Positions 6,052 to 56,745 of a DNA stretch of 58,148 nt are shown in pieces (within the stretch, counting starts at the first letter, position 1; every line of letters begins with the position of its first letter). The stretch is from positions 1 to 58,148 of the forward strand of contig JAPLWX010000038.1 in the NCBI GenBank assembly GCA_026396415.1. The letters are read 5' to 3'. Position numbers and translations under genes: made by a program. Below the pieces are notes generated by a model. It saw only the letters and a program-made list of their open reading frames with translations, was not told where the DNA came from and ran no database searches. The stretch comes from Microcaldota archaeon. Lineage in GTDB: Archaea; Micrarchaeota; Micrarchaeia; Anstonellales; Anstonellaceae.

Positions 6052-6266
6052 AATGAAACTGTGGCGGAAAATGCGGATCGAGCCGCCTTTCCTAGATATT
6101 CCCTATAGTCGTCTCTCTACTAAGCATACTTATTCGCTTAAAGAATTTTAAAATATCAAAGTAATAGATACACCTCATTTCCGCAGCAATCACTTCGTAG
6201 ACCCACCGGCATCCTACCCTAGGAACAGTTATATGCACGTTTCCCTGCTTGTTTGGGGGTGGGATT
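6052..6266 (+). promoter_or_regulatory. Intergenic region with promoter of the Cdc6 gene of element A
   Basis: This 215-bp gene-free stretch separates the defence operon from element A. A TATA-like AGTTATATG lies around 6227-6235. A strong purine-rich ribosome-binding sequence (GGGGGTGGG, 6255-6263) sits just before GTG 6267 and decides that start over TTG 6249. I saw no inverted repeat or attachment-site copy here. Confidence 0.45.
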
Positions 6267-7397
6267 GTGCGCGAGCTGTTCGAAGACAGGCATGGCGTCG
6301 AAAGCGCGTTAATACTCAAGGAATATGCGCTCACGCCTGCATACTACTCAACGGATGTCCTCCACCGCGAGGCCGAGCTGAAGGAAATCGCGGAAGCAGT
6401 CAAGCCGCTTCTTTATGGCAGGCAGCCTGAGAATCTCTTCATCCATGGCGACTCAGGCACCGGCAAGACAACCTGCGCTAAATACGTGTCAAGGAAGCTT
6501 GAGGAGCAGTCGGGCAACGTAAAGCCGGTTTACATCAACTGCTGGCAGTCCCTGACGCGCATGTCAGCCTACTCCAAGATTGCCCTGGCAATCGAAACCA
6601 TGCTTCCAAGGCGCGGCTGGGCGATTGATGAAGGTCTTGACCGGATAACGGAGGCGATGGAGAAGGAAAACGTGAGGGTGCTTATGGTGCTTGATGAGCT
6701 AGATGGCCTGTTTTTCCAGCACCAGGAGTGGCTTTTGTACGACCTTACCCGCATCAACAGCGAAAAGCCGCTGTTTTGCGTGATTGCCATTTCAAAGGAT
6801 AAGAATCTCCTGGCGAACAAGGACATTCGGATAAAGAGCTCGGTCAGGCTCAAAGACCTCGAATTCAAGCATTATAACGCGGCGCAGATAGCGGACATTT
6901 TGGAGGAGAGGGCGAAAATCAGCCTGAGGGATGGCAGCTACAATCGGAATGTCCTGGATGCCTGCGCTGCAAGGGCGTTTGCCCGCGAAAGCAATGCGCG
7001 ACTGGGCTTCGAATTCCTCTGGAGAGCCGCGAAGATTGCGGAAAGGGGCAACCGCAGCAAGATAACCTTGGAAGATGTCAAGGCTTCTGCTGAAAGGACA
7101 CTGTACGATGAAAAGGCACCCAAGCGCGTGGAGGATCTGGGCTTTGAGTTCATGAACGCGAGCCTGACCGATGAGGAGAGGCTCATACTCAGCATACTCA
7201 AAAATGGTGAAAAGACCTCCTCGCAGCTTTATGCCGCGTTTTGCAGGAAGATGACGCGCAGCAGCCGCTCGATTCGGAACTACCTGAGCAGGCTCGAGAT
7301 AAAACAGCTGGTCAGGATTGAAACCGTGCCGGACAACGGCTCAGGGTTTTCAACAAGGAAGATAAGGCTGAATATTGGGACTGGAAATGAAACATGA
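6267..7397 (+). CDS. cdc6: Orc1/Cdc6-family AAA+ replication initiator (element A)
   Basis: This roughly 376-residue AAA+ ATPase has HREAELKEI, Walker A GDSGTGKTT (about residues 60-70) and Walker B VLMVLDELDGLFF (about residue 138), followed by an ATPase lid and a C-terminal winged helix (residues about 300-370; SSRSIRNYLSRLE). The order is that of archaeal Orc1/Cdc6, which recognises origins and loads MCM. It is co-oriented with the histone-fold gene 3 nt downstream and lies beside an iteron cluster at 7613-7722. A diverged homologue occupies the equivalent place in element B (55669-56745), sharing the NCWQ.S.RM.IYS region after Walker A. I infer replication of the element rather than of the chromosome. 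Confidence 0.88.
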   Translation: MRELFEDRHGVESALILKEYALTPAYYSTDVLHREAELKEIAEAVKPLLYGRQPENLFIHGDSGTGKTTCAKYVSRKLEEQSGNVKPVYINCWQSLTRMSAYSKIALAIETMLPRRGWAIDEGLDRITEAMEKENVRVLMVLDELDGLFFQHQEWLLYDLTRINSEKPLFCVIAISKDKNLLANKDIRIKSSVRLKDLEFKHYNAAQIADILEERAKISLRDGSYNRNVLDACAARAFARESNARLGFEFLWRAAKIAERGNRSKITLEDVKASAERTLYDEKAPKRVEDLGFEFMNASLTDEERLILSILKNGEKTSSQLYAAFCRKMTRSSRSIRNYLSRLEIKQLVRIETVPDNGSGFSTRKIRLNIGTGNET

Positions 7398-7612: not shown

Positions 7613-7722
7613 GCGCTTACTTTCGCGCTTAATGTTCCCTGCTAGCTTCCGAAACTTGACAGTCGGTGAAGACTGCGCTTAATATGCGCTTAAAACGACG
7701 TTCTGGCTGCCAATTGCGCTTA
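7613..7722. repeat. Iteron-like array, five GCGCTTA repeats (candidate origin of element A)
   Basis: Five direct copies of GCGCTTA begin at 7613, 7625, 7675, 7686 and 7716, the last overlapping the VirB4 stop codon. Spacings are 12, 50, 11 and 30 bp, so two pairs lie one helical turn apart. They fill the gap between the convergent histone and VirB4 genes, next to Cdc6. The position fits an initiator-binding site. Element B has a different iteron in the same place. Confidence 0.6.
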
Positions 7723-10700
7723 TTTCGCGCGTTTCGCTCTCAGATAATATTTGTGTGCTATCTCTTCTACTATGCTATCAATATCCGCGCGCGTTATCGT
7801 CCTTGCTATCTGCGAGTACTTGTCCTTCATGAGCCGGTCGGTGACAAGGATAACCGTTTCGTCAAACTCCTTCTGCCGTGACTCAATCCTCCGCTTAAGC
7901 TCTTCCGCATCGCCAAGCATGTTGTTTCCTGTTTCTACCTCAAAGCAGATCCTGCACTTGCCGATTGAGACCAGCACATCTGAATTTCCGCCAGCATCCA
8001 CCACCGCTTTTATCCGCTTGGACTTGAACCTGTCTGCGATTGCCCAGCAGAACAGCGCGTGCTCTGCCGTTTCGTTCCCCTGCGTTTTCACCAGGTAATA
8101 TGCGGAGCCCTCGTGCGCGCCCAGCTTGTCCTTGTGCAGCACGTAGCCCTCCTTGCGCAGGGTCTGTGCCTGCTTCTCGCTTATCTCGCTTAGCCGATAG
8201 TAGCCCTTGGATAGGTTTATCTTGACCTCCTCCTTGGCATATTCGCTCTCCTTTTCCTCGATGATTTTTTGCGCCTCATTGGGATCCGTAGTTATCAGTG
8301 CGTGGATCAGTGGAGGCGCCACTGTGAAGAAACGGTAATGCCCTTCCTCAGTTATCAGGATGCCGTGTCCCTTGTTTGCCCTAAGCAGGAAATCCTTCTC
8401 GCTATCGTTGAGCTTGAGCCCTTTTGAGACCAGTTCCAGGTTGCTCGGGTTCTGGCGCATGAGAATCTTTGTGGAAGTCGTGTTTAGGATGCTTCTTCCA
8501 CCATCGCTTTTCAGCAGGTCTTCTATTTCCTGCGTGATGAAGCCGATTGAGGCGTTGTATTTGCGGGAGGTCTTGATGAATTCCAGGATGTAGTTTTCCG
8601 CCTCGTGGCTGCGCAGCAGGGACCAGCCCTCGTCTATCAGCACCACCTTTGGCTTGTTGTCCTTCCTTATTTCTCGAGCAACCAAATCAAGCACAACGAA
8701 CATCATCAGCTTCTTTACAGGGCCTGGAAGCCTGCTGAGGTCAAAATCCACGAACTCGCTTTTGAGGTTTATTTTGGTCTGCTTGTCAAGGAAGCCGAAA
8801 AAGCCGCCCTTGCTGTACATCCGCACCCTGTTGAGAAGTACTTCCACGCTCCTGTCCTCAAGGAAGGACTTGCGCCTGTTCGATTTCTTGAGCACGCTTT
8901 CCAGCACCAGCTTGAAGTCGCTGAAAGTCGGCGGCTTCTTTTTCCAAGTGGCTGGCTTGTCGTAAACTATGCCCTTCTTCAGGTAGACGCCCAACAGCGC
9001 CTCATTGAGAACTCCCTTCTGGCTTTCCGTCAGGCCGCCGGAAATGATATCGAAAACTGATATCAGGGAAATCATCTTGCTTCCGAAATCCTCGCTTCCG
9101 AAGTCGAAGACGTTTATGATTGAGTCGGAGTCCTTGGAAAGCTCCACCACCTCGCCGTTCAGTTTTTTGGTCAGTTCCTTGTACTCCGCGTTCGGGTCGA
9201 GGATGTAGACCCTTGCCTCGTCGTTTATCAGGTGCTGGATTGTGAGGTATTTTGAGGTGTAGCTTTTTCCTGAGCCGGAGATGCCAAGCACGAAAAAGTG
9301 CTTGTTGCTCATGGAATCGAAGTCAACAAACAGGGGGTTCTTGGTCTGTTCTTCATGGGCGAACATCACCCCCTTTCTCTTTGTGCTTGCGGGGGATATG
9401 AAAGGGAAAGTGGCTGTGAGGGGGCTTGTCAAAAATTCCCTGTGCGATTCCAGCGCGTCGGTTCCGAGCGGAAGCGTGGACTTTATGCCCTCCGCCATGC
9501 GGTACTTTGCCACCTTGGGGATCATCAGCATGGCATTGAGGTTGGCGTTGCATTTCTCGGTCAACAAATCAAGCTTTCCAAGGTCGGCTTCCTTGTTGTC
9601 AAGGTAAAGCGAGACGCGGAAAAGCTTCTCCTCGCCCTTGTAGAGCTGCTCGTATGTCCTCATCGTGTCGTTCTTCTTTATCTCCAATGCCGGGTTGGGC
9701 GTGCCTTTTGCGGTGCTCATCATCAGATCCGCGGTTTGCCGGATTATCTGGTTGTGCAGAAGCACAAGTGTTTGGGTAATCGTGGACGGGTGGATGTGAA
9801 GCGAGATGTCGTAGCCCTCGTTTTTCCCAAGAAATGAGCGGAGCCAGCCGTCCTCAACTTTCCTTGGGTAGCCGGTTACCTTTACTATCCGGTGGAATGT
9901 CTCGTTTACCCTTGCCTCTTCCGGCTTGACCTCAAACGTAGGCGTAAGCATAAAACGAAAGATGTCCTTCATCGGGTTGTCGCTTTCCACTTTCCTTTTT
10001 GGGAAGAGTTTGGAGAACAAGCCAGGTTTTGGCTTTTTCTGGGCTACTTTCGCGGGGGCTGTTTCATCTTTGTATTCGGAATATGAGAATAGCAAGGCGA
10101 TTAACTGGTCGTTGCCAAGGCGGTTTGCTTCCAGTCCGCAGCCAGAAATTTTCTCCATCATTATCTGAACCTGCTGGTCAAGCTGCTTCAGTTCGTTATC
10201 TTGCCCAACCGTACCTTTTCCCATGCGTTTTTTCGGCTGGTGGGTGACAATCAGGTAGTAATGGCGCTCCTTTACCTTGTTTTCCTCCATGAACTTTTCC
10301 TCGAAGATACGGAAATCGGTGTAAAGCGAGCTGAATTCGCGCACCGAGTTCTGGAACTTCTTTTCCTGCGCCTCGAAATAGCCGTCCAAACGGGCGTCGG
10401 TTGTCCTTACCAGAACCTGTATCGGCTGGACAAGATGGTTGAGGAATTCCCGGTAATTGGATATGAGCGACTTTTTCCTTTCCTCGTCAAGAAGCTCGAA
10501 GTTCACAGGGTAAACCTGGAGGATTGCGCGCATCGCCCCGCTGTCAAGGTAGATTGTGCTGTCCTTTATCGCCTTTACACCTATGAAATGCTGTGCCTTC
10601 GGATCTTCGGGTGAGGCTTTTCGGATGTTTTGGTTGTATGCTATGGCATCAAGGAGCTTTTCCTCTATATTCAGGAACGCGAAAGCCAGGCCGGTTAGTG

Positions 10701-10863
10701 CAAATACTGCAGGCAGCACTAAACGGAACTCGCCTTCAAGCGGCAGGTTGTAGGCAAGGATAGCCATTACCCCAAAAAGCACGGCAAAGCCTAGCTGCTT
10801 GAGGTCAAGATTAAGGATAATCTTCTCTTTGTACTTTATCTCGTCTGGAATATCGTAGCCCAT
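7720..10863 (-). CDS. virB4: VirB3-VirB4-like conjugation ATPase with C-terminal nuclease-like domain (element A)
   Basis: This 1047-residue protein starts at ATG 10863, where MGYDIPDEIKY matches the homologue in element B. Residues 1-65 carry a PrgI/VirB3-like segment (DLKQLGF followed by two membrane helices). The VirB4 body has Walker A GISGSGKSYTSKYL near residue 525 and Walker B KVVLIDEGWSLL near 738, followed by QEIEDLL and ILMRQNPSNL, typical of VirB4/TraC. Residues about 910-1047 form an extra domain with AEHALFCWAI, SDVLVSIGKCRICFEVETG and VILVTDRL. Its Asp...Glu-x-Glu arrangement recalls PD-(D/E)xK nucleases. It would power pilus assembly or DNA transfer at the membrane. It is the last gene of the minus-strand operon. 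The nuclease assignment is inference. Confidence 0.85.
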   Translation of the reverse strand: MGYDIPDEIKYKEKIILNLDLKQLGFAVLFGVMAILAYNLPLEGEFRLVLPAVFALTGLAFAFLNIEEKLLDAIAYNQNIRKASPEDPKAQHFIGVKAIKDSTIYLDSGAMRAILQVYPVNFELLDEERKKSLISNYREFLNHLVQPIQVLVRTTDARLDGYFEAQEKKFQNSVREFSSLYTDFRIFEEKFMEENKVKERHYYLIVTHQPKKRMGKGTVGQDNELKQLDQQVQIMMEKISGCGLEANRLGNDQLIALLFSYSEYKDETAPAKVAQKKPKPGLFSKLFPKRKVESDNPMKDIFRFMLTPTFEVKPEEARVNETFHRIVKVTGYPRKVEDGWLRSFLGKNEGYDISLHIHPSTITQTLVLLHNQIIRQTADLMMSTAKGTPNPALEIKKNDTMRTYEQLYKGEEKLFRVSLYLDNKEADLGKLDLLTEKCNANLNAMLMIPKVAKYRMAEGIKSTLPLGTDALESHREFLTSPLTATFPFISPASTKRKGVMFAHEEQTKNPLFVDFDSMSNKHFFVLGISGSGKSYTSKYLTIQHLINDEARVYILDPNAEYKELTKKLNGEVVELSKDSDSIINVFDFGSEDFGSKMISLISVFDIISGGLTESQKGVLNEALLGVYLKKGIVYDKPATWKKKPPTFSDFKLVLESVLKKSNRRKSFLEDRSVEVLLNRVRMYSKGGFFGFLDKQTKINLKSEFVDFDLSRLPGPVKKLMMFVVLDLVAREIRKDNKPKVVLIDEGWSLLRSHEAENYILEFIKTSRKYNASIGFITQEIEDLLKSDGGRSILNTTSTKILMRQNPSNLELVSKGLKLNDSEKDFLLRANKGHGILITEEGHYRFFTVAPPLIHALITTDPNEAQKIIEEKESEYAKEEVKINLSKGYYRLSEISEKQAQTLRKEGYVLHKDKLGAHEGSAYYLVKTQGNETAEHALFCWAIADRFKSKRIKAVVDAGGNSDVLVSIGKCRICFEVETGNNMLGDAEELKRRIESRQKEFDETVILVTDRLMKDKYSQIARTITRADIDSIVEEIAHKYYLRAKRAK

Positions 10864-10868
10864 GGCAA

Positions 10869-11813
10869 TCACAGCGCGGCGTAAATCATCGGCAAAGCCA
10901 TCCACTTCAGAGGCCCCATCGTTTGGAGAACCGGCTCGACAACTGAAAGGATGGCGATTGCGAAAAGCGCAAGGTTGAGTAAGCCCACCAGCCCGAAGCC
11001 GAGCATCACAGCCATTGACTTGACGAATGAATCAAGCAGATTGGGATCCGGCGAGCTGAACAGCGAGGCAAGCCCGGCAATGAAAACCGCGTCTATTGCC
11101 GTCATGAATACGATTATTGCTATTATTTTGAGAAATGCGCCTCCCCACGCCTTTCCGAATGGCATGAAGTAGAGGAATATTGAGATTGGGAAAAGCAGTA
11201 GCAAGAACGGAATAAGCAAATAGCGGATAAGCAGCGTGAAGAATGTAATCCCTGCCGTGAAAAGCAACCCTCCGATTATCACAAGCGCGAATATCAATGA
11301 GGCAAAGGACATGTTCGCATTGAATACGCTTGCCACGGATTGGGTAATTAAAGAGGTCGAAATGTACTGGTTGAGCGAAAGCAGCATATCGAACAGGTAA
11401 AACGAGAACGTGAGTATCACTATCATGAAGAAAACGTCCTTGAGCATCATCTTTGCCCTTACCCTGCCTTCCACGTCCGGCGCCTGGATGATATAGTAAA
11501 ACCCTACGCCCATCAGCGCGATTGAGTAAAGGCTCTCCAAAAGCGCCATCACCTGCGTGTAAGGCGCGCAGAACCAGTGCGGATCGGGCGAGGCGGTAAG
11601 AAATCCTATTGCCGAATTGGTGAACTGCTGGCTTGTGTAAACCATGCCAGTTGCCAAAGTCGTAAGGAAAGACTCGGTTATACAGGCCGGAAGGTTATTG
11701 AGAACTGCCAGTATGTCCGTGTTGTTGGCGCACGAGCTTGGCGGCAGCGTCACATTCATTGAGGCGTTCTGGATCGCCATGAGCGCAAGGATGCCGAATA
11801 GGAAAAGCCTCAT
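10869..11813 (-). CDS. VirB6/TrbL-like polytopic membrane protein (element A)
   Basis: The protein has 314 residues from ATG 11813, exactly the length of its element B homologue. A signal peptide (MRLFLFGILALMAIQNAS) precedes a lumenal/extracellular stretch containing FLT.SPDPHWFCAPY, followed by about six membrane helices, including LLIRYLLIPFLLLLFPISIFLYF. The layout fits VirB6/TrbL inner-membrane channel components, and the neighbours (VirB4 5 bp downstream, VirB2-like genes upstream) support this. Family assignment is by topology and context rather than a diagnostic motif. Its start overlaps the upstream 504-residue gene by 4 nt (ATGA), so the two are translationally coupled. Confidence 0.75.
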   Translation of the reverse strand: MRLFLFGILALMAIQNASMNVTLPPSSCANNTDILAVLNNLPACITESFLTTLATGMVYTSQQFTNSAIGFLTASPDPHWFCAPYTQVMALLESLYSIALMGVGFYYIIQAPDVEGRVRAKMMLKDVFFMIVILTFSFYLFDMLLSLNQYISTSLITQSVASVFNANMSFASLIFALVIIGGLLFTAGITFFTLLIRYLLIPFLLLLFPISIFLYFMPFGKAWGGAFLKIIAIIVFMTAIDAVFIAGLASLFSSPDPNLLDSFVKSMAVMLGFGLVGLLNLALFAIAILSVVEPVLQTMGPLKWMALPMIYAAL

Positions 11814-18635: not shown

Positions 18636-18758
18636 ATGGAAGAAAAACCGTTGTCCCTCGACGATCTCAAGCCATTTCTCCCGGCTTGGCTATGGGAATT
18701 GAAAAAGAAAGCAAAAGAAGAAAGGGAAAAGAAGTCAGAGCTTCTGGTCAAGCCCTAG
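18636..18758 (+). CDS. Possible 40-residue basic/acidic helical peptide, antisense to integrase end
   Basis: An ATG-started frame of 40 codons encodes a lysine/glutamate-rich helix (FLPAWLWELKKKAKEEREKK). It lies in the gap behind the integrase gene and overlaps its last 24 bp on the other strand. The amphipathic composition looks protein-like rather than random, but there is no homologue in element B and no clear ribosome site, so it is a weak call. Confidence 0.3.
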   Translation: MEEKPLSLDDLKPFLPAWLWELKKKAKEEREKKSELLVKP

Positions 18759-19937
18759 CTCGACAGCCTTCTTGAAAAGGTAGTCCTTGAATTCCGCGTT
18801 TTGCATGAGCCTGTTGAGCACCTCTTCGCCGACCTTGCGCTCGTCCTCGATCTGGATCGCGGACTGTGCGTTCATCGGAGTCCCGCAGCGCAGGCAGAAT
18901 TTCGCTATCGGCGAGTTCTTCTCCTTGCAGCGCGGGCAAAGGCAAACCACCATTTTGTCCTCCTTCTTGTCGTCAGGTTTAATGATGCCCTGCAGAGCGA
19001 GCAGTGCCTTGTCCACATCGCGCCCGGACAAGTGCACGTAAACTGAAGCCATGTCGCTTGCCTGCACCCAGCCGAAATACTCCTTCATCTGCGCCTCGGT
19101 CAGCTTTCCCGCAAGCGCCGTTGCCCGCGAATGCCTGAACAGGTGCGGGAAAATGCGCTTCTTTATCCCAGCCTTTATGGCCAGTTGCTTCAGCATGAAG
19201 TAGACCGAGCGGTATTCCATGCACGTTTCGCGGTATTTGTAGCCGTTCGAAAGAGGCGGCCAGAGGGGCGCTTCGGGGTTATCCGCCTTCGCGTGGATTT
19301 CAATCCAGGACGAAAGCGTAGGCGCCGAGCTGATTATCCGAACGCGCCTATCTCCAGTCTTGCCCGTAACCCGCAGCACAGCCCCGTATTGGTCAAACTG
19401 GACGTTCTTCATCTTGAGGGTGAGGATTTCACCTATCCGGCAGCCGGTCTCGTACAGGACAAGGATAAGCGCCTTGTCACGCGGGTGATCCGCGGCTTTC
19501 GCCAGCCTGAAAACCTCCTCCTCGGTAATGAGCTCCTCGGGCAGCTTGTGCTTGTTCTTGAGCCTCGATTTTATCCAGGAAACTTCCGGGGGGAAAAACT
19601 CGTCGTTCCCCTTGTACCATTTGAAAAATAGCTTCAGAATGGTCTTGAAGTCGTGCTTCGAGGCAGGCGCGTAATCGGTGCTGTCCACCTCGTTCACAAG
19701 CTTCATCAGGCTCTCTTTAGTCGCCTCGTCAAAGGGCTTTTCGTGCCATTTTGAGAGGAAGCGGAGGCAGTAAATGCACTTGCACATCCGCATCCGGCCA
19801 ACGCCCCGAGCAAGCCTTTCATTCGCAAAAGAAAGGATCAACTGCTTGTTCTTGGGGCATACGCCCTTGTCGCGCTCCACCCGCTTATACGCCAGGTCCA
19901 TGTTGGCCTGGCTCTTATGCACCTCGAAATTTCCCAT
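18735..19937 (-). CDS. Tyrosine recombinase/integrase with C-terminal zinc ribbon (element A)
   Basis: The protein has about 400 residues from ATG 19937 (MGNFEVHKS); an in-frame start at 19991 is less likely. An N-terminal core-binding domain precedes the catalytic domain with ETGCRIGEIL (first Arg), HLFRHSRATA (His-x-x-Arg) and SVYVHLSG, where the Tyr would be the nucleophile. After it comes a zinc ribbon, CPRCKEKNSPIAKFCLRCG (about residues 338-356). The gene starts about 90 bp from the 3' end of tRNA-Gly, the usual place for an integrase that uses a tRNA 3' end as attachment site. It would integrate and excise element A. Confidence 0.9.
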   Translation of the reverse strand: MGNFEVHKSQANMDLAYKRVERDKGVCPKNKQLILSFANERLARGVGRMRMCKCIYCLRFLSKWHEKPFDEATKESLMKLVNEVDSTDYAPASKHDFKTILKLFFKWYKGNDEFFPPEVSWIKSRLKNKHKLPEELITEEEVFRLAKAADHPRDKALILVLYETGCRIGEILTLKMKNVQFDQYGAVLRVTGKTGDRRVRIISSAPTLSSWIEIHAKADNPEAPLWPPLSNGYKYRETCMEYRSVYFMLKQLAIKAGIKKRIFPHLFRHSRATALAGKLTEAQMKEYFGWVQASDMASVYVHLSGRDVDKALLALQGIIKPDDKKEDKMVVCLCPRCKEKNSPIAKFCLRCGTPMNAQSAIQIEDERKVGEEVLNRLMQNAEFKDYLFKKAVELGLDQKL

Positions 19938-20028
19938 GCCTATCTCTCCGGTCAAAGGGTAATTTGAGGCTTCATGCCCAATCCGGCACATACGTGCCAG
20001 ATCGGGGCGAACTGAGGTTAGAATAAAG

Positions 20029-20221
20029 TGCGACCGCCGGGATTTTCAAAGCCCTAAACCCGCATTCGTCGGGGGGTTTGGGCGGTGTCGGACTAAGGGG
20101 GCGAAGCCCCCTTGGGCTGACATTTGAACCCGGGTTACGAGATTTATGCGGCCAATTCCGCACGAACCGATGCCGAAAAGCCTTGGCAACCTCGAGTCCT
20201 ACCAGGCTAGACTACAGTCGC
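20029..20221 (-). tRNA. tRNA-Gly(GCC) with two introns, one in the T loop
   Basis: Folded by hand, the 193-nt gene gives a 73-nt tRNA. The acceptor stem GCGACTG/CGGTCGC has one wobble pair and the discriminator is A. The D arm is GTCTAGCCTGGTAGGAC, the anticodon stem CGAGG/TCTCG, the loop TTGCCAA (anticodon GCC), and the T stem CCGGG/CCCGG with loop TTCAAAT. A 40-nt intron follows anticodon-loop position 37, the canonical archaeal place. A further 80 nt interrupt the T loop; their ends pair as TTCAAA/TTTGAA with bulges on opposite sides, like a bulge-helix-bulge splice motif. Inside are a GGGGGC-TTCG-GCCCCC hairpin and a second long stem. CCA is not encoded. An alternative is a tRNA damaged by an insertion. 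Confidence 0.72.
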
Positions 20222-46355: not shown

Positions 46356-46465
46356 TGGGATCGTAGGGATTTGAACCCTAACATGCAGGTGTATTCTAGG
46401 ACCCGCGCGTTTCCGCACGGGCGAGATCTGGAGCCTGCCGCGCTACCAAATTACGCCACGACCCC
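46356..46465 (-). tRNA. tRNA-Trp(CCA) with 37-nt intron
   Basis: Hand folding gives the acceptor stem GGGGTCG/CGATCCC (one G-U), D arm GCGTAATTTGGTAGCGC, anticodon stem GCAGG/CCTGC with loop CTCCAGA (anticodon CCA) and T stem TAGGG/CCCTA with loop TTCAAAT. The discriminator is A and no CCA is encoded. A 37-nt intron sits after position 37, the standard place for archaeal tRNA-Trp. The mature length is 73 nt. The gene is transcribed away from the element B integrase, which lies 60 bp on its 5' side, so it is not a classic 3'-end attachment site. Confidence 0.9.
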
Positions 46466-46489
46466 GTGGTTTACTACCGGATTATTTCA

Positions 46490-46525
46490 TATACCTTTAT
46501 ATACTTCAAACGCATTAACAGCTAC
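46490..46525 (+). promoter_or_regulatory. Promoter of the element B integrase
   Basis: A TATA box (CTTTATATAC, 46495-46504) lies about 25 bp before ATG 46526. This makes the internal ATG the start, with a leaderless or near-leaderless message, and rejects the in-frame GTG at 46466, which overlaps the promoter. Confidence 0.6.
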
Positions 46526-47785
46526 ATGGATTCAATTTCTTCATCTCCTCCGACGTACACAACGTCAGCAGCCTATGATGTTGTTCGGCTTGCCCATTTC
46601 AAGAACGTTCTCAAGACAGACGAAGCCATAATTCCGGCAAACAAAATAGACCTCATGAAATTTATAAGCCATATGGAGAGCCGCGGCATCACCATTTCGC
46701 GTTGCCGCTCGCTCATGGATGACATAATGTGGTTCGGCAGGCTCCTGAAAAAGCGCTGGATGGACTGCACCCGCGAAGACATTGACGAGCTGATGGCCGA
46801 TCTGCGCCGCACCGATTACGCAGGCTGGACAAAGCTCCGCAAGGCATTCGCACTCAAAACTTTCTACCGCTACCTGAATGGCGGCGACTCCCCGCCACAT
46901 TGCGTTGCCAGGATAAACCGCACAGAGCTTAATTTCGAAACCCACAATCTTGAAAGCCGGGACATCCTAAGCCTTGAAGACCTCCAAAAGCTGCTCAAGG
47001 CCTGCGACAACGAACTTGAATCTGCGCTTATCTATTGCTTATGGGAGAGTGGCGCACGCTCGTCCGAGTTTATGAGACTCACAATTGGCGACCTGGAGGA
47101 CAAGGGCAACTTCTACTTGGTTCACATCCGCACTTCCAAAGTCAGGGCTTCCTCAAGCGCCCCAAGAGTCCGCAAGTTCCCCCTAGTGGAAAGCGTTGGC
47201 TTCCTTCGAGCCTATTTGAACAAGCACCCTATGCGTGACAACCCACAGGCAGCCCTTTGGCTCTCAAACAGCCAGAACCGCCGCAGGCAGCCTCTGACAG
47301 ACCGGGGCCTACGTTTCATCATCAAAGGCATAGGCAAGCGCGCCAAGATAGGCAAACGGGTGTGGGTGCACCAGTTCAGGCACTCTGCAGCCACCCGCAT
47401 GGCCCCCAAGCTCTCCCTGCCAATAATGAACGACCTTATGGGATGGAGCAAAAGCAGCCGCATGCACGCCACCTACGTGCAACTTGATGGCGAGGCATCC
47501 CAGCGCGCGGTTCTTGAACTTTACGGCATGGAGGCGCCACAGTCTAAGCCCAAGCCTGTTGAAATGCTTCCCTGCCCCGCCTGCAAGACTCCCAACCTGC
47601 CTGGCAATGTCATGTGCGCCATCTGCGGCCGCGCATTGCAGACCATCGGCGCAGTCAGCGTAATGGACGAGCTTGAGCAGATGAAGAAGAAAATGAACCA
47701 AATGATGCTGCCAGCCGCACGCGGATCCGTAACCCGAGCAAAGAGGGCCGCGCAAAGAAAGATGCTGAGAAAAAAGAGGGCGTAA
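46526..47785 (+). CDS. Tyrosine recombinase/integrase with C-terminal zinc ribbon (element B)
   Basis: The protein has 419 residues from ATG 46526. The catalytic set is WESGARSSEFMRL (Arg), HQFRHSAATRM (His-x-x-Arg) and MHATYVQLDG (Tyr). An N-terminal core-binding region precedes it, and a zinc ribbon CPACKTPNLPGNVMCAICG (about residues 350-368) plus a basic tail follow. The same domain order, including the ribbon, is found in the element A integrase, although sequence identity looks modest. It catalyses insertion and excision of element B; the attachment site is not resolved. Confidence 0.9.
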   Translation: MDSISSSPPTYTTSAAYDVVRLAHFKNVLKTDEAIIPANKIDLMKFISHMESRGITISRCRSLMDDIMWFGRLLKKRWMDCTREDIDELMADLRRTDYAGWTKLRKAFALKTFYRYLNGGDSPPHCVARINRTELNFETHNLESRDILSLEDLQKLLKACDNELESALIYCLWESGARSSEFMRLTIGDLEDKGNFYLVHIRTSKVRASSSAPRVRKFPLVESVGFLRAYLNKHPMRDNPQAALWLSNSQNRRRQPLTDRGLRFIIKGIGKRAKIGKRVWVHQFRHSAATRMAPKLSLPIMNDLMGWSKSSRMHATYVQLDGEASQRAVLELYGMEAPQSKPKPVEMLPCPACKTPNLPGNVMCAICGRALQTIGAVSVMDELEQMKKKMNQMMLPAARGSVTRAKRAAQRKMLRKKRA

Positions 47786-51765: not shown

Positions 51766-54700
51766 GTGAGCTATGACATACCGGACGAAATCAAGTACAG
51801 GGAGAAAATCGTCTTCGGGCTTGACCTGAAGCAGCTTTGCTATCTCTGCCTTTTCGGGCTGCTTGCCTTCCTATCGCTCAGCATCCCAATAAAGGGCCAG
51901 GCGGTGCTCATTCTCCCTTCTTTCTTTAGCATTCTCGGAGTAGGCTTCATCTTCTTGAATCTGGAGGAGCGTGTGCTAGATGCCTGGCACTATTACGGAG
52001 AAGTGAGAAAAGCACCCTCATCAGACAAAAAAGCGCAGCGGCTGATGGGAATACACGCGATTGAAAACAATCAAATGATTCTCGTAGATGGCTCATTGCG
52101 CGCGGTCCTGCAAGTAGAACCAATAAACTTCAGCCTGCTGGACGAGGGGCAGAAGACAGCATTCGTTTCCAATTACAGGGAATTTCTCAACCATCTCACC
52201 GACTCCGTACAGATACTTGTCAGGACTGAAAAATCGGACGCGGAAGACCTGTTTGCCGAAGCGCAAAGCAACCTTGAAGGCGCCGAAACCGAGATAGCCT
52301 CCTTCTTCCGCGACTTCTTCACGTTCGAGCGCGAGTTCATGGAAGCCAACAACGTGAAAAGCAGGCGATACTATCTTGTAGTGGCGCAGCAGAAGCGCGT
52401 GGCGTTGGGAAAGGGAAATGCAGAGGAGGAACGAAAACAGCTCGACCAAAAGGCGCAAATAATACAGGAAAAGCTCTCGGCGTGCGGGCTTCGTTCGGAG
52501 CGCCTAAGCAGCGCAAGACTAACGCGCCTCTTCACATCATACTCGGTGGCGGAAAACGAAGAACAGGAGAAGGAAGCCGAGACGAAAAAGGGCAATCCGC
52601 ACATCAATTCGCTAATCTGGCTCATAATCAAGACCAAAATAGATATAGCCGCATTTTTCGCTCCAGTATCCGCAAATCACGCCAAAAAGGAAAAGCAGGT
52701 GAAAGAACCCGAGTCAGAGCGCGCGTCCTCCCTTATCGAAGAAATAACGCCCGACTTTGACATCTCAATATCTCACGCGGGCGTCAACGGGATACGCCAC
52801 CGCATAATCAAGGCGGTGGGGTATCCTCGCAATGTGGAGGACGGCTGGCTCGAGCAGTTCATGGCGACGAGCGAGCCGTACGACGTTTCCATACACATCC
52901 ATCCCGCAAGCATCAGCCGCACCCTTGTAAACATCCATAACCAGATAATCAGGCAGACATCCGACCTCCTTTCGGGCAACGCGGAACACACACCCAACCC
53001 AGCATTGGAGATAAAGCGCAAGGACACGCTGAAGGTCTACGGGCTTCTCTACAAAGGCAAGGAGAAGATGTTTGACGTTTCACTCTATGTAGACAACCAG
53101 GCGCGCGACTTAGAGGAGCTTGCGCTCATGGAGGAGCGCTGCAAAGCAAACATGAACGCCATGCTCATAGTGCCGAAAAGGACGGACTTTCGCATGGCGG
53201 ATGGCATAAAATCAATGCTTCCGGTGGCGGTGGACGCGCTCGAAGCGCGCCGGGAATTTCTTACAAGCTCGCTCTGCGCCACCTTCCCGTTCCTCTATCC
53301 GGTGGACTCGCGCGGCAAAGGCACGTTCTTCGCGCACGAAAGGAGAACACTGAACCCGCTTTTCATAGACTTCGACGCAATGAGCAACAAGCACTTCTTC
53401 GTCCTTGGCATTTCCGGCTCGGGCAAGAGCTACGCGGCGAAATTCCTGCTCATGCAGCACATCCTCTCAAGGGAGGCGAAAATCTACGTCCTCGACCCTA
53501 ACGCGGAGTATTCGGGCCTGGTAGAGCGGCTTGGTGGCACGGAAATAGATCTTTCCAAGGACTCGGACAAGATTATCAACCTGTTCGACCTGGCAGGGGA
53601 GGACTTCGGAAGCAAGATGCTCACGCTCATTTCGGTATTTGACATAATAACCGGGGGATTGAGTGAAAGCCAGAAGGGAGTGCTCAATGAAGCGCTCGTG
53701 CGCGTTTACAGAAAGAAGGGCATAGACGCGGCAAACCCAGGCAGCTGGGAAAGGAAAGCGCCCACGTTCAGCGACCTGAAGGGCATACTGGAGGACATGA
53801 AACGAAGGGTAAAGAGGCGCACGCAATCGCCCGAGGAAAAGAGCGTGGAGGTGCTGCTCAACAGGGTTCGGATGTACTCGCGCGGAGGCTTTTTCGGCTT
53901 CCTGGACAGGGGGACGAAGGTGGACTTGAACAGCGGGGTGCTGAGCTTCAACCTGAGCAGCCTTCCACCGCAGGTGAAGCAGCTTGTGATGTTTTCTGTG
54001 CTGGAGCTGGTTTCGCGCGAGATGCGGAAGGACAAAAAGCCCAAAGTAGTGCTTATTGATGAGGGTTGGTCGCTTCTGCGCAGCAAGGAGGCTGAGGACT
54101 ATATACTGGAATTCATCAAGACCTCGCGCAAGTTCAATGCTTCGATAGGCTTCATAACACAGGAGATAGAGGATTTGATGCGCAGCGAAGGCGGAAGAAG
54201 CATACTCAACACCACCTCTACGAAAATACTCATGCGCCAGAATTCGAGCAACCTTGACCTGATTTCCAAGACGCTCGCTCTCAACGACAGGGAGCGGGAC
54301 TACTTATTGCGCGCGGAAAAGGGCCAGGGATTGATGATAAACGAGCAGGGAAGGTATGAATTCATAGTGAAGGCGCCGCCGATGATAAATGCGCTCATCA
54401 CGACCGACCCGAACGAAAAGCGCCCAGAGGGGATGCCTGTAATGGAAAAGAAGAAGGAGAAAAAGGATGCGGGAGAGATGGATTGCGCGTGCGGGTTCTA
54501 TCTGGAAAGCGAGCTAAGCGACGCTCAAAAGGACTTTTTGGCTACCGAAGGGTTCGTCTACCATCGCAGCCACCTTTTCGATGCCAAAGGGAGCCATAGG
54601 TTTGTGGTGAGGCGACAGCCGCAGGAGTCGCCCGAACACTCGCTTTTGTGCTGGGGGATAGCAGAGGAGATAAGGAAGCATGGAGGCAGGCCGGAGGTGC

Positions 54701-54957
54701 TTGCCACGGTTGGCGCGGACGTTTCAGTGAAGGTTGGGAAGAGGAGGATTTGCTTTGAGGTTGAGACGGGCAGCAATCTTGACTCCTATGATGAGGAGCA
54801 CGTTAAGGCAAAGTTTGAGGAAATAAGAAAGGAATACGATATGCTCATTGTGGTGGTGACTGACAGGAAGCAGCGGGGGAAGTACGAAAAGATTGCGCGC
54901 GCGAAGGCGATAACAAGGACTGAGGTGCCGGAAGCAGTGGCAAGGCTGTTCAGATAG
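51766..54957 (+). CDS. virB4: VirB3-VirB4-like conjugation ATPase with C-terminal nuclease-like domain (element B)
   Basis: The protein has 1063 residues from GTG 51766. It contains a PrgI/VirB3-like N terminus (SYDIPDEIKYREK, two membrane helices), Walker A GISGSGKSYAAKF (about residue 546), Walker B VVLIDEGWSLL (about 760), QEIEDLM and ILMRQNSSNL. The extra C-terminal domain (about residues 910-1063) repeats the features of A: SPEHSLLCWGI, ADVSVKVGKRRICFEVETG, VVVTDRK. Conservation of Asp, Glu-Val-Glu and the flanking strands in two diverged copies supports a functional nuclease-like fold. The middle linker around residues 280-330 differs strongly from A. Confidence 0.86.
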   Translation: MSYDIPDEIKYREKIVFGLDLKQLCYLCLFGLLAFLSLSIPIKGQAVLILPSFFSILGVGFIFLNLEERVLDAWHYYGEVRKAPSSDKKAQRLMGIHAIENNQMILVDGSLRAVLQVEPINFSLLDEGQKTAFVSNYREFLNHLTDSVQILVRTEKSDAEDLFAEAQSNLEGAETEIASFFRDFFTFEREFMEANNVKSRRYYLVVAQQKRVALGKGNAEEERKQLDQKAQIIQEKLSACGLRSERLSSARLTRLFTSYSVAENEEQEKEAETKKGNPHINSLIWLIIKTKIDIAAFFAPVSANHAKKEKQVKEPESERASSLIEEITPDFDISISHAGVNGIRHRIIKAVGYPRNVEDGWLEQFMATSEPYDVSIHIHPASISRTLVNIHNQIIRQTSDLLSGNAEHTPNPALEIKRKDTLKVYGLLYKGKEKMFDVSLYVDNQARDLEELALMEERCKANMNAMLIVPKRTDFRMADGIKSMLPVAVDALEARREFLTSSLCATFPFLYPVDSRGKGTFFAHERRTLNPLFIDFDAMSNKHFFVLGISGSGKSYAAKFLLMQHILSREAKIYVLDPNAEYSGLVERLGGTEIDLSKDSDKIINLFDLAGEDFGSKMLTLISVFDIITGGLSESQKGVLNEALVRVYRKKGIDAANPGSWERKAPTFSDLKGILEDMKRRVKRRTQSPEEKSVEVLLNRVRMYSRGGFFGFLDRGTKVDLNSGVLSFNLSSLPPQVKQLVMFSVLELVSREMRKDKKPKVVLIDEGWSLLRSKEAEDYILEFIKTSRKFNASIGFITQEIEDLMRSEGGRSILNTTSTKILMRQNSSNLDLISKTLALNDRERDYLLRAEKGQGLMINEQGRYEFIVKAPPMINALITTDPNEKRPEGMPVMEKKKEKKDAGEMDCACGFYLESELSDAQKDFLATEGFVYHRSHLFDAKGSHRFVVRRQPQESPEHSLLCWGIAEEIRKHGGRPEVLATVGADVSVKVGKRRICFEVETGSNLDSYDEEHVKAKFEEIRKEYDMLIVVVTDRKQRGKYEKIARAKAITRTEVPEAVARLFR

Positions 54958-55668: not shown

Positions 55669-56745
55669 TCACAGATTGGCAAGCTGTATCATCCTGGTAT
55701 TCAAAAGCGGGCTTCCACCATCAATCGTTTGTATGTTCAGAACCTTCTTTGCCTCAAGTTCGTGGAGATAGTTTCGTATTTGCCTCTTGCTCCGTTTCAG
55801 CTTCCTGGAAAAAGCCAGGTAAAGGTCGGTCGAGCTTTTCGGGCCGGTTTTCACTATTTCAAAAATCACTTGTTCCTCATCGCTTAACTTGACTTGGGGA
55901 ATTGCGGAGTGTCCCTCAAGCTGCCCCACTGCTCCAAAAGAATTGCATTTATCCGTCGCCTTGACATCTTCAAGCGTTATCTCCGCCCTTCCGACTTTCT
56001 CGGCATTCTTTGCCGCGCGCCACAGCAAATCCAAGCCGTTCCTCACGTTGCTTTTCCTTGCAGCCATCTTTTCAGCGCAGGCTTCGATAACCTCCTTGCC
56101 CCAGCTGCCAGGCGCCAGACCCATAATTGCCCTTTGCTCCAAGATGTCTTCCAATTCAGCAAGGTTGTAGTGCTTAAATTCCAACTGGGAAAACCTAACC
56201 TCGCTTCCAACACCTTTGCTTGCCATCAGGTTTCCATTATTTGATATGCATATTGAACCGAAGAACGGCTTTCCCTTACCCGCCCTTTCAATATCGCAAA
56301 GCAGATGCGCCTCACCGTGGAAGAAAAGCCCGTCAACATCATCCAGCACAAGGAGTATCCGCGTTCCCTCCTTTTCCATAAGCTCGATTATCCTGTCGAA
56401 TACCTCATCCCGCGCTAAGCCTCTGCGCGGCATCATCTCCCCCAGTGCTCTTACAATGAGGGAATAGATTGCCATTCGGGTGGAGTGCTGCCAACAGTTC
56501 ACATAAATTAGCTTCACGCGCGAGCTTTTCCTCTCAAGCCCCTTCAGAATCTGCGTTATAACCGCAGTTTTGCCGGTTCCAGGGTCTCCAAATATGAAAA
56601 GGTTGTCTGGTTGCCTGCCTTCAAATAGGGGCTTTATCGCCTCGCTAATATCCTTTGTTTCCATCTCCCTGTGAATGAGGCTGTTCGGGCAATGCCCAGC
56701 CATCAGAGCCTCTTCCCTGGTTATCACTAAGCCCATTCTTACCAT
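55669..56745 (-). CDS. cdc6: Orc1/Cdc6-family AAA+ replication initiator (element B)
   Basis: The protein has 358 residues from ATG 56745; ATG 56736 (MGLVITREEAL) is equally possible. Walker A FGDPGTGKTAV (about residue 52) and Walker B ILLVLDDVDGLFF are followed by sensor and lid regions and a C-terminal winged helix (KLKRSKRQIRNYLHELEAKK). It shares with the element A protein GRQP.NLFI.GD.GTGKT, YVNCWQ, MPRRG, LEFKHYNLAE and GLDLLWRAAKNAE. It lies in an operon with two membrane protein genes upstream and probably initiates replication at the adjacent iterons. Confidence 0.87.
   Translation of the reverse strand: MVRMGLVITREEALMAGHCPNSLIHREMETKDISEAIKPLFEGRQPDNLFIFGDPGTGKTAVITQILKGLERKSSRVKLIYVNCWQHSTRMAIYSLIVRALGEMMPRRGLARDEVFDRIIELMEKEGTRILLVLDDVDGLFFHGEAHLLCDIERAGKGKPFFGSICISNNGNLMASKGVGSEVRFSQLEFKHYNLAELEDILEQRAIMGLAPGSWGKEVIEACAEKMAARKSNVRNGLDLLWRAAKNAEKVGRAEITLEDVKATDKCNSFGAVGQLEGHSAIPQVKLSDEEQVIFEIVKTGPKSSTDLYLAFSRKLKRSKRQIRNYLHELEAKKVLNIQTIDGGSPLLNTRMIQLANL

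Follow-up and report, generated by a model that had tools for sequence, protein, structure and literature searches.

The window, the whole stretch of 58,148 nt that was analysed, is part of the genome, designated G000 here, of an uncultured, tiny member of the Micrarchaeota. Its minus strand carried a tRNA-Gly(GCC) gene split by a canonical intron in the anticodon loop and by a second intron in the T loop, with a tyrosine integrase gene adjoining the tRNA 3' end (Table 1); the coordinates given in the initial annotation were exact for this strand. Removal of both introns yielded GCGACTGTAGTCTAGCCTGGTAGGACTCGAGGTTGCCAATCTCGTAACCCGGGTTCAAATCCCGGCGGTCGCA, a 73-nt tRNA-Gly(GCC) with the normal T loop TTCAAAT, in which the predicted exon junction across the T-loop intron site reads CCGGGTTCAAA followed directly by TCCCGG. 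In the pre-tRNA fold (-86.5 kcal/mol, versus -71.1 +/- 4.5 for shuffled sequences; z = -3.4, none of 200 shuffles being as low), the acceptor, D, anticodon and T stems and a UUCAAA/UUUGAA helix were all formed, the last having been noted at the outset. ARAGORN detected no tRNA in the window and the Rfam model RF00005 missed the gene, as is expected from the T-loop insertion; the sole Rfam match in the window was a tRNA-Trp gene at 46356-46465.

Table 1. Features of the interrupted tRNA-Gly(GCC) gene and the adjoining integrase in the window (carets mark splice sites)
Feature	Position	Strand	Evidence
tRNA-Gly(GCC) gene with two introns	20029..20221	minus, read 20221 to 20029	Spliced 73-nt tRNA; all stems in pre-tRNA; homologues in relatives
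Canonical 37/38 intron, 40 nt	20144..20183	minus	Anticodon loop UUGCCA^A; homologous intron in G003, G004, G007, G009
T-loop intron at 59/60, 80 nt	20043..20122	minus	UUCAAA^UGUC...GAAAA^U; mini-introns or other elements at same position in relatives
3' exon, 14 nt (U60 to discriminator A73)	20029..20042	minus	All of the tRNA that lies between intron and integrase
Central-helix 5' strand, UUCA, exon	20125..20128	minus	Pre-tRNA fold and exon structure
Central-helix 3' strand, UGAA, intron	20045..20048	minus	UUCA/UGAA, UUCG/CGAA, UUCA/UGGA in other tRNAs
3' splice-site bulge AAU, cut AA^U	20042..20044	minus	AAU in most of 37 candidates
Family-1 mobile palindromic element copy (GTCAGCCC...CAAACCCCCC), right border provisional	20071..20121	minus	Dispersed copies in own genome and other Micrarchaeota
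Element hairpin 1	20087..20121	minus	Covariation: both-side changes at 5/12 pairs, score reached by 0/500 shuffles
Hairpin 2 (GCCCAAACC...GGTTTAGGGC), closing the intron	20051..20083	minus	Fold; other tRNA-borne copies have a similar 3' arm, GGTTTGNGG
Tyrosine integrase, of the element abutting the tRNA 3' end	18735..19991	minus	ORF and sequence motifs; same gene and junction in sister G008

A second tRNA-Gly(GCC) gene, the search for which had been proposed as a check, was found neither with RF00005 at E values up to 10 nor by BLAST with the gene in the G000 assembly, which is about 92% complete and whose tRNA complement is a lower bound. The other glycine tRNAs of the genome, Gly-TCC (locus L015, T loop intact) and Gly-CCC (contig C18, T loop interrupted by a 44-nt intron), both assigned by eye, do not read GGC or GGU by standard wobble. 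Since no second GCC gene was found in this assembly for an essential tRNA, splicing of the interrupted gene is probably required.

The T-loop junction had been read as a relaxed bulge-helix-bulge (BHB), and the exon structure agreed with this. The 3' splice side was canonical, consisting of the T stem, the 3-nt AAU bulge and the 4-bp UUCA/UGAA helix, that is, half a BHB, whereas the 5' splice side was relaxed and without the canonical inner helix, its place in the MFE fold being taken by a multi-branch junction of element hairpins. The 18-nt intron of the homologous gene in G007 formed a strict, textbook BHB (UUCA AAU CCA GAAUU UGG UGAA AAU, central helix UUCA/UGAA). A scan of the fetched loci, which demanded an acceptor stem, the start of a D arm and a T stem only and not the central helix, returned 37 distinct T-loop-interrupted candidates with the full 4-bp central helix in 24, frequencies that refer to loci fetched by resemblance to the query and are not estimates across Micrarchaeota, as from a random genome sample; the shuffle control, three copies of the same DNA, gave four candidates, none with the helix. 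That the gene is a pseudogene ruined by the insertion, GGC and GGU being read by an unassembled gene, would fit the incompleteness of the assembly; we regard it as very improbable, given that no stem has been lost and that acceptor variants of different species remain paired (GCGACTG/CGGTCGC and GCGGCTG/CGGCCGC), that the same arrangement recurs in at least eight tRNAs, and that most of the 37 candidates have a central helix matched to base 57 of the T loop, U going with A and C with G. Plain target duplication was rejected as the origin of the T-loop introns, as a paired TGAA and not a repeated TTCA precedes the 3' site, and flank repeats of the T-loop copies did not exceed the control, one copy excepted.

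The best match of the EndA protein of G000 among solved structures was the ARMAN-2 epsilon-2 enzyme (4fz2/9w2k; E 1e-126), to which it is orthologous. Counted along the ARMAN-2 alignment, it retains the catalytic residues Tyr236, His251 and Lys282, the bulge-binding Arg275, and Tyr160-Lys161 of the ASL loop; the roles of these residues were taken from PMC12397907, which ties the ASL loop to relaxed substrates. The genome encodes a splicing endonuclease of the ARMAN-2 type (epsilon-2), for which broad specificity is predicted.

When G000 was searched by BLAST with the gene, many places matched the T-loop insert only. The shared core of this family, designated family 1, extended from GNCAGCCCAAGGGGG, which is the left end, to CCCCCTTAGTCCGNCACCGCCCAAACCCCC. 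Within G000, family 1 occupied the T loops of tRNA-Gly(GCC), Arg(GCG), Ala(TGC), Lys(TTT), Ser(CGA) and one further tRNA of unassigned isotype; the T loop of a Glu-type tRNA carried a second family (CCTAGGGGG..CCCCCTNAGG..TCACCCCC), and the 44-nt insert of Gly(CCC) was related to neither, so that the genome has at least eight T-loop introns, in tRNAs whose isotypes were assigned by eye. The intron had initially been singled out as an unusual case; this stands insofar as it is a T-loop intron of a DPANN genome, but it is no isolated oddity, in view of the number of such introns and of a body that recurs as a dispersed mobile repeat. When 84,980 species were scanned for an exact pattern, family 1 turned up in no contigs other than those bearing the labels Micrarchaeota, 'ainarchaeum' or unnamed archaeon, and none was found in viral contigs with one exact pattern; the relatives holding the element are named Micrarchaeota, in agreement with the earlier placement of a T-loop intron beside an integrase in a DPANN-like genome.

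In hairpin 1, the both-side changes among 20 distinct copies amounted to 21 cells, with 99.2% of cells paired, and slid controls failed; as the rows were hand-chosen and the structure was derived from sequence, these compensatory counts are the stronger part of the covariation evidence. G044 contained nine related copies, the majority 142-308 nt long, whose left ends were for the most part sharp and preceded by AAAT or CAAT and whose right end was GGTGGTGGGGCGAGCCAGTTG. A copy between PAC2-like and superoxide dismutase genes was present in G000 and G008, and the same site was empty in six further species of the genus (G002, G004, G005, G006, G007 and G009). Direct repeats of 14-41 bp lay on both sides of eight copies, most copies being without them; such repeats exceeded the control in the non-T-loop copies but not in the T-loop copies as a class. 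Dispersal together with presence and absence among relatives characterises a mobile, non-autonomous element, and the intron body is, as judged from its homologues, a copy of a dispersed, Micrarchaeota-specific palindromic mobile element.

Some copies showed further peculiarities. Nested hairpin inserts (GCATTTTGC..GCAAAATGC and GTCGAGC..GCTCGAC) were located within own-genome element copies (L048, L051, L100 and L106), and a family-1 copy with nested hairpins (L047/L097, contig C35 of G000) breaks a C1-peptidase-like reading frame between LLK and ISVDLRAFCPPIYNQG, adding an in-frame TGA. In G013 (L033, contig C11), a family-1 copy lies at the anticodon-loop junction between a tRNA 5'-half fragment and a complete tRNA, whose 41-nt 5' half is nearly the same as that of the fragment; an acceptor mismatch in the downstream copy is absent from the fragment.

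No transposase linked to the element was found. The genome's own IS200/IS605 genes were rejected as movers, the flanks of its two Y1 transposases being without a recognisable element end, and no Y1 transposase was detected in G006 despite 23 family-2 hits. Palindromic and REP elements related to IS200/IS605 have a left-end hairpin, insert 3' of a short motif and are non-autonomous; the element described here has these features in common with them, but some of its copies are flanked by the repeats mentioned above and the own Y1 flanks lack element ends. Membership of IS200/IS605 or RAYT-REP was not adopted, the genome having no Y1 transposase with the same ends. A SINE-like retroelement was rejected on the lack of an RVT_1 match in the copy-rich G006 and G044, G000 and G008 having matches, and a classical MITE on the lack of terminal inverted repeats when the ends were read and of a short fixed target duplication. 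Rfam gave tRNA only for the window and the element-bearing loci, with no known structured RNA or group I intron.

Comparison of the gene in related genomes, also suggested earlier, revealed several states of the same tRNA-Gly T-loop site: mini-introns of 15, 18 and 19 nt (G002, G007 and G009) and of 37 nt (G005), family 1 (G000 and G003), family 2 (G006, G008, G014 and G016), and no intron (G004). The mini-introns of G002, G007 and G009 were free of element sequence, and that of G005 resembled an internally deleted element. In G004 the T loop was intact, the exons and canonical intron being otherwise very similar; the tree gave no firm placement for this genome. G000 and G008 were sisters (100/99), yet their introns had different bodies, family 1 and family 2, respectively.

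Family 2 was observed at other sites as well. It occupied 37/38 introns of Arg-type tRNAs (L207, L208, L209, L212 and L213, including one on contig C41 of G000), was flanked by 14-25-bp direct repeats in L214, L215, L224, L226 and L229, two of which repeat the 5' end of tRNA-Ala, and formed tandem dimers with a period of about 70 nt in T-loop introns of G006 (L210 and L228). Separately, two tRNA-Val genes of G000 (L021 and L022, contigs C44 and C52) had a common non-tRNA sequence, GCCGGCAAGCCGAC, at the expected 5' D-arm; these inserts are probably homologous D-loop introns.

Between G000 and G008, DNA identity was 96.6% over the stretch that runs from the integrase as far as the 3' splice site (window 18830-20048), with divergence beyond it; part of this similarity may stem from the integrated element having spread recently. 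The G008 integrase, 97.7% identical in amino acids, likewise adjoined its tRNA-Gly, which has a different T-loop intron. No attachment-site repeat of the tRNA 3' end was present in the window, and a 16/17 match at C37:9950 was discarded as such a site because the stretch looks coding. It had been proposed that the intron could protect the tRNA from integrases. Retention of the intron as a shield of the tRNA 3' end, in the manner of Randau and Soll, is a general hypothesis in the literature (PMC4090602), and the intron does split a typical att region; nevertheless, since an integrase element already lies directly at the tRNA 3' end here and in G008, with differing T-loop introns, the proposal was not supported and seems most improbable for this gene. 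The T-loop intron did not prevent integration, and the 14-nt 3' exon is still available. Another integrase gene (46466-47785) is located elsewhere in the window (46356-47785), next to tRNA-Trp on its 5' side. Its flanking cargo, an ATPase (51766-54957) and an Orc1/Cdc6-like protein (55669-56745), resembles the tRNA-Gly element's 7720-10905 and 6249-7397, respectively; this one contig apparently contains a pair of related integrated elements.

Taken together, it is likely that the gene contains a genuine spliced intron at 59/60, of a kind in which short mobile hairpin elements, themselves non-autonomous, have settled repeatedly. The epsilon-2 endonuclease would make one cut 3' of A59 and another within the AAU bulge, 3' of its AA; ligation of the tRNA halves would restore UUCAAAU as a normal T loop. 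The element makes up most of the intron, with its covarying GGGGG/CCCCC hairpin and a C-rich tail that pairs with the intron's 3' part. The family seems to insert 3' of sequences like RAAT, one of which is supplied by the T loop TTCRAAT. Being spliced out, the element would remain silent, and as insertion inside a spliced intron would cost little, T-loop introns of Micrarchaeota tRNAs may have been repeatedly filled, exchanged and trimmed. A pre-existing mini-intron is favoured as the starting point by the several states of the same site, including the textbook BHB of G007, and by the differing bodies in the sister genomes.

Alternatively, the hairpin elements could be archaeal introners, the element itself creating T-loop introns: insertion in the invariant TTCRAAT would make spliceable introns, permitted by the relaxed epsilon-2 endonuclease, with the complementary 3' end brought along or soon acquired and the mini-introns being decayed insertions. 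Nearly all T-loop copies begin roughly 1 nt into the intron from the 5' splice site, the 3' arm GGTTTGNGG is common to tRNA-borne copies, and the T loop of G004 is intact in an otherwise very similar gene; the mini-introns could also be deletion remnants of elements and not their ancestors, as the G005 intron looks like one. We nevertheless hold this origin to be rather unlikely, as element-free mini-introns occupy the same tRNA-Gly position in G002, G007 and G009, intron tails (TGGTGAAAAT) are alike whatever the body, and two unrelated-looking bodies in sister genomes are easier to understand with an intron older than the insertions.

Non-canonical BHB introns of archaeal tRNAs, among whose listed positions is 59/60, are known mainly from Crenarchaeota, Thaumarchaeota and Nanoarchaeota (PMC4090602), and ARMAN-1 and 2 appear in a list of cases with multiple introns (PMC4033280). 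The case described here shares with them the 59/60 position, a BHB-like junction and multiple introns per tRNA, and differs in occurring in Micrarchaeota and in having a dispersed mobile repeat as body. Similar intron sequences in different tRNAs also characterise the translocatable tRNA introns (PMC4390854), of which the mechanism is unknown; here, by contrast, related copies lie outside tRNA genes, empty sites exist in relatives, and the tRNAs affected include one of class II (Ser), whereas translocatable introns were not seen in class II tRNAs (PMC4390854). The disruption model for Caldiarchaeum tRNA-Thr (PMC3293823) likewise proposes mobile DNA as the cause of intron gain and has a tRNA fragment beside the insertion, but it concerns a single locus, where the insertion measures 1.9 kb and carries a recombinase-like ORF, as opposed to hairpin elements of 50-320 nt in many copies.

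How non-canonical introns spread among archaeal tRNA genes has been an open question since intron transposition was described in Thermoproteales. In the present case the body of the intron is a traceable mobile element, which connects the spreading of such unusual introns among tRNAs with mobile DNA. T-loop introns also cause standard tRNA finders to miss such tRNAs. With non-tRNA copies, empty sites, several states of the gene in one genus and a suitable relaxed endonuclease, intron gain and turnover become directly testable; were the elements indeed introners, insertion itself would yield new tRNA introns in archaea.
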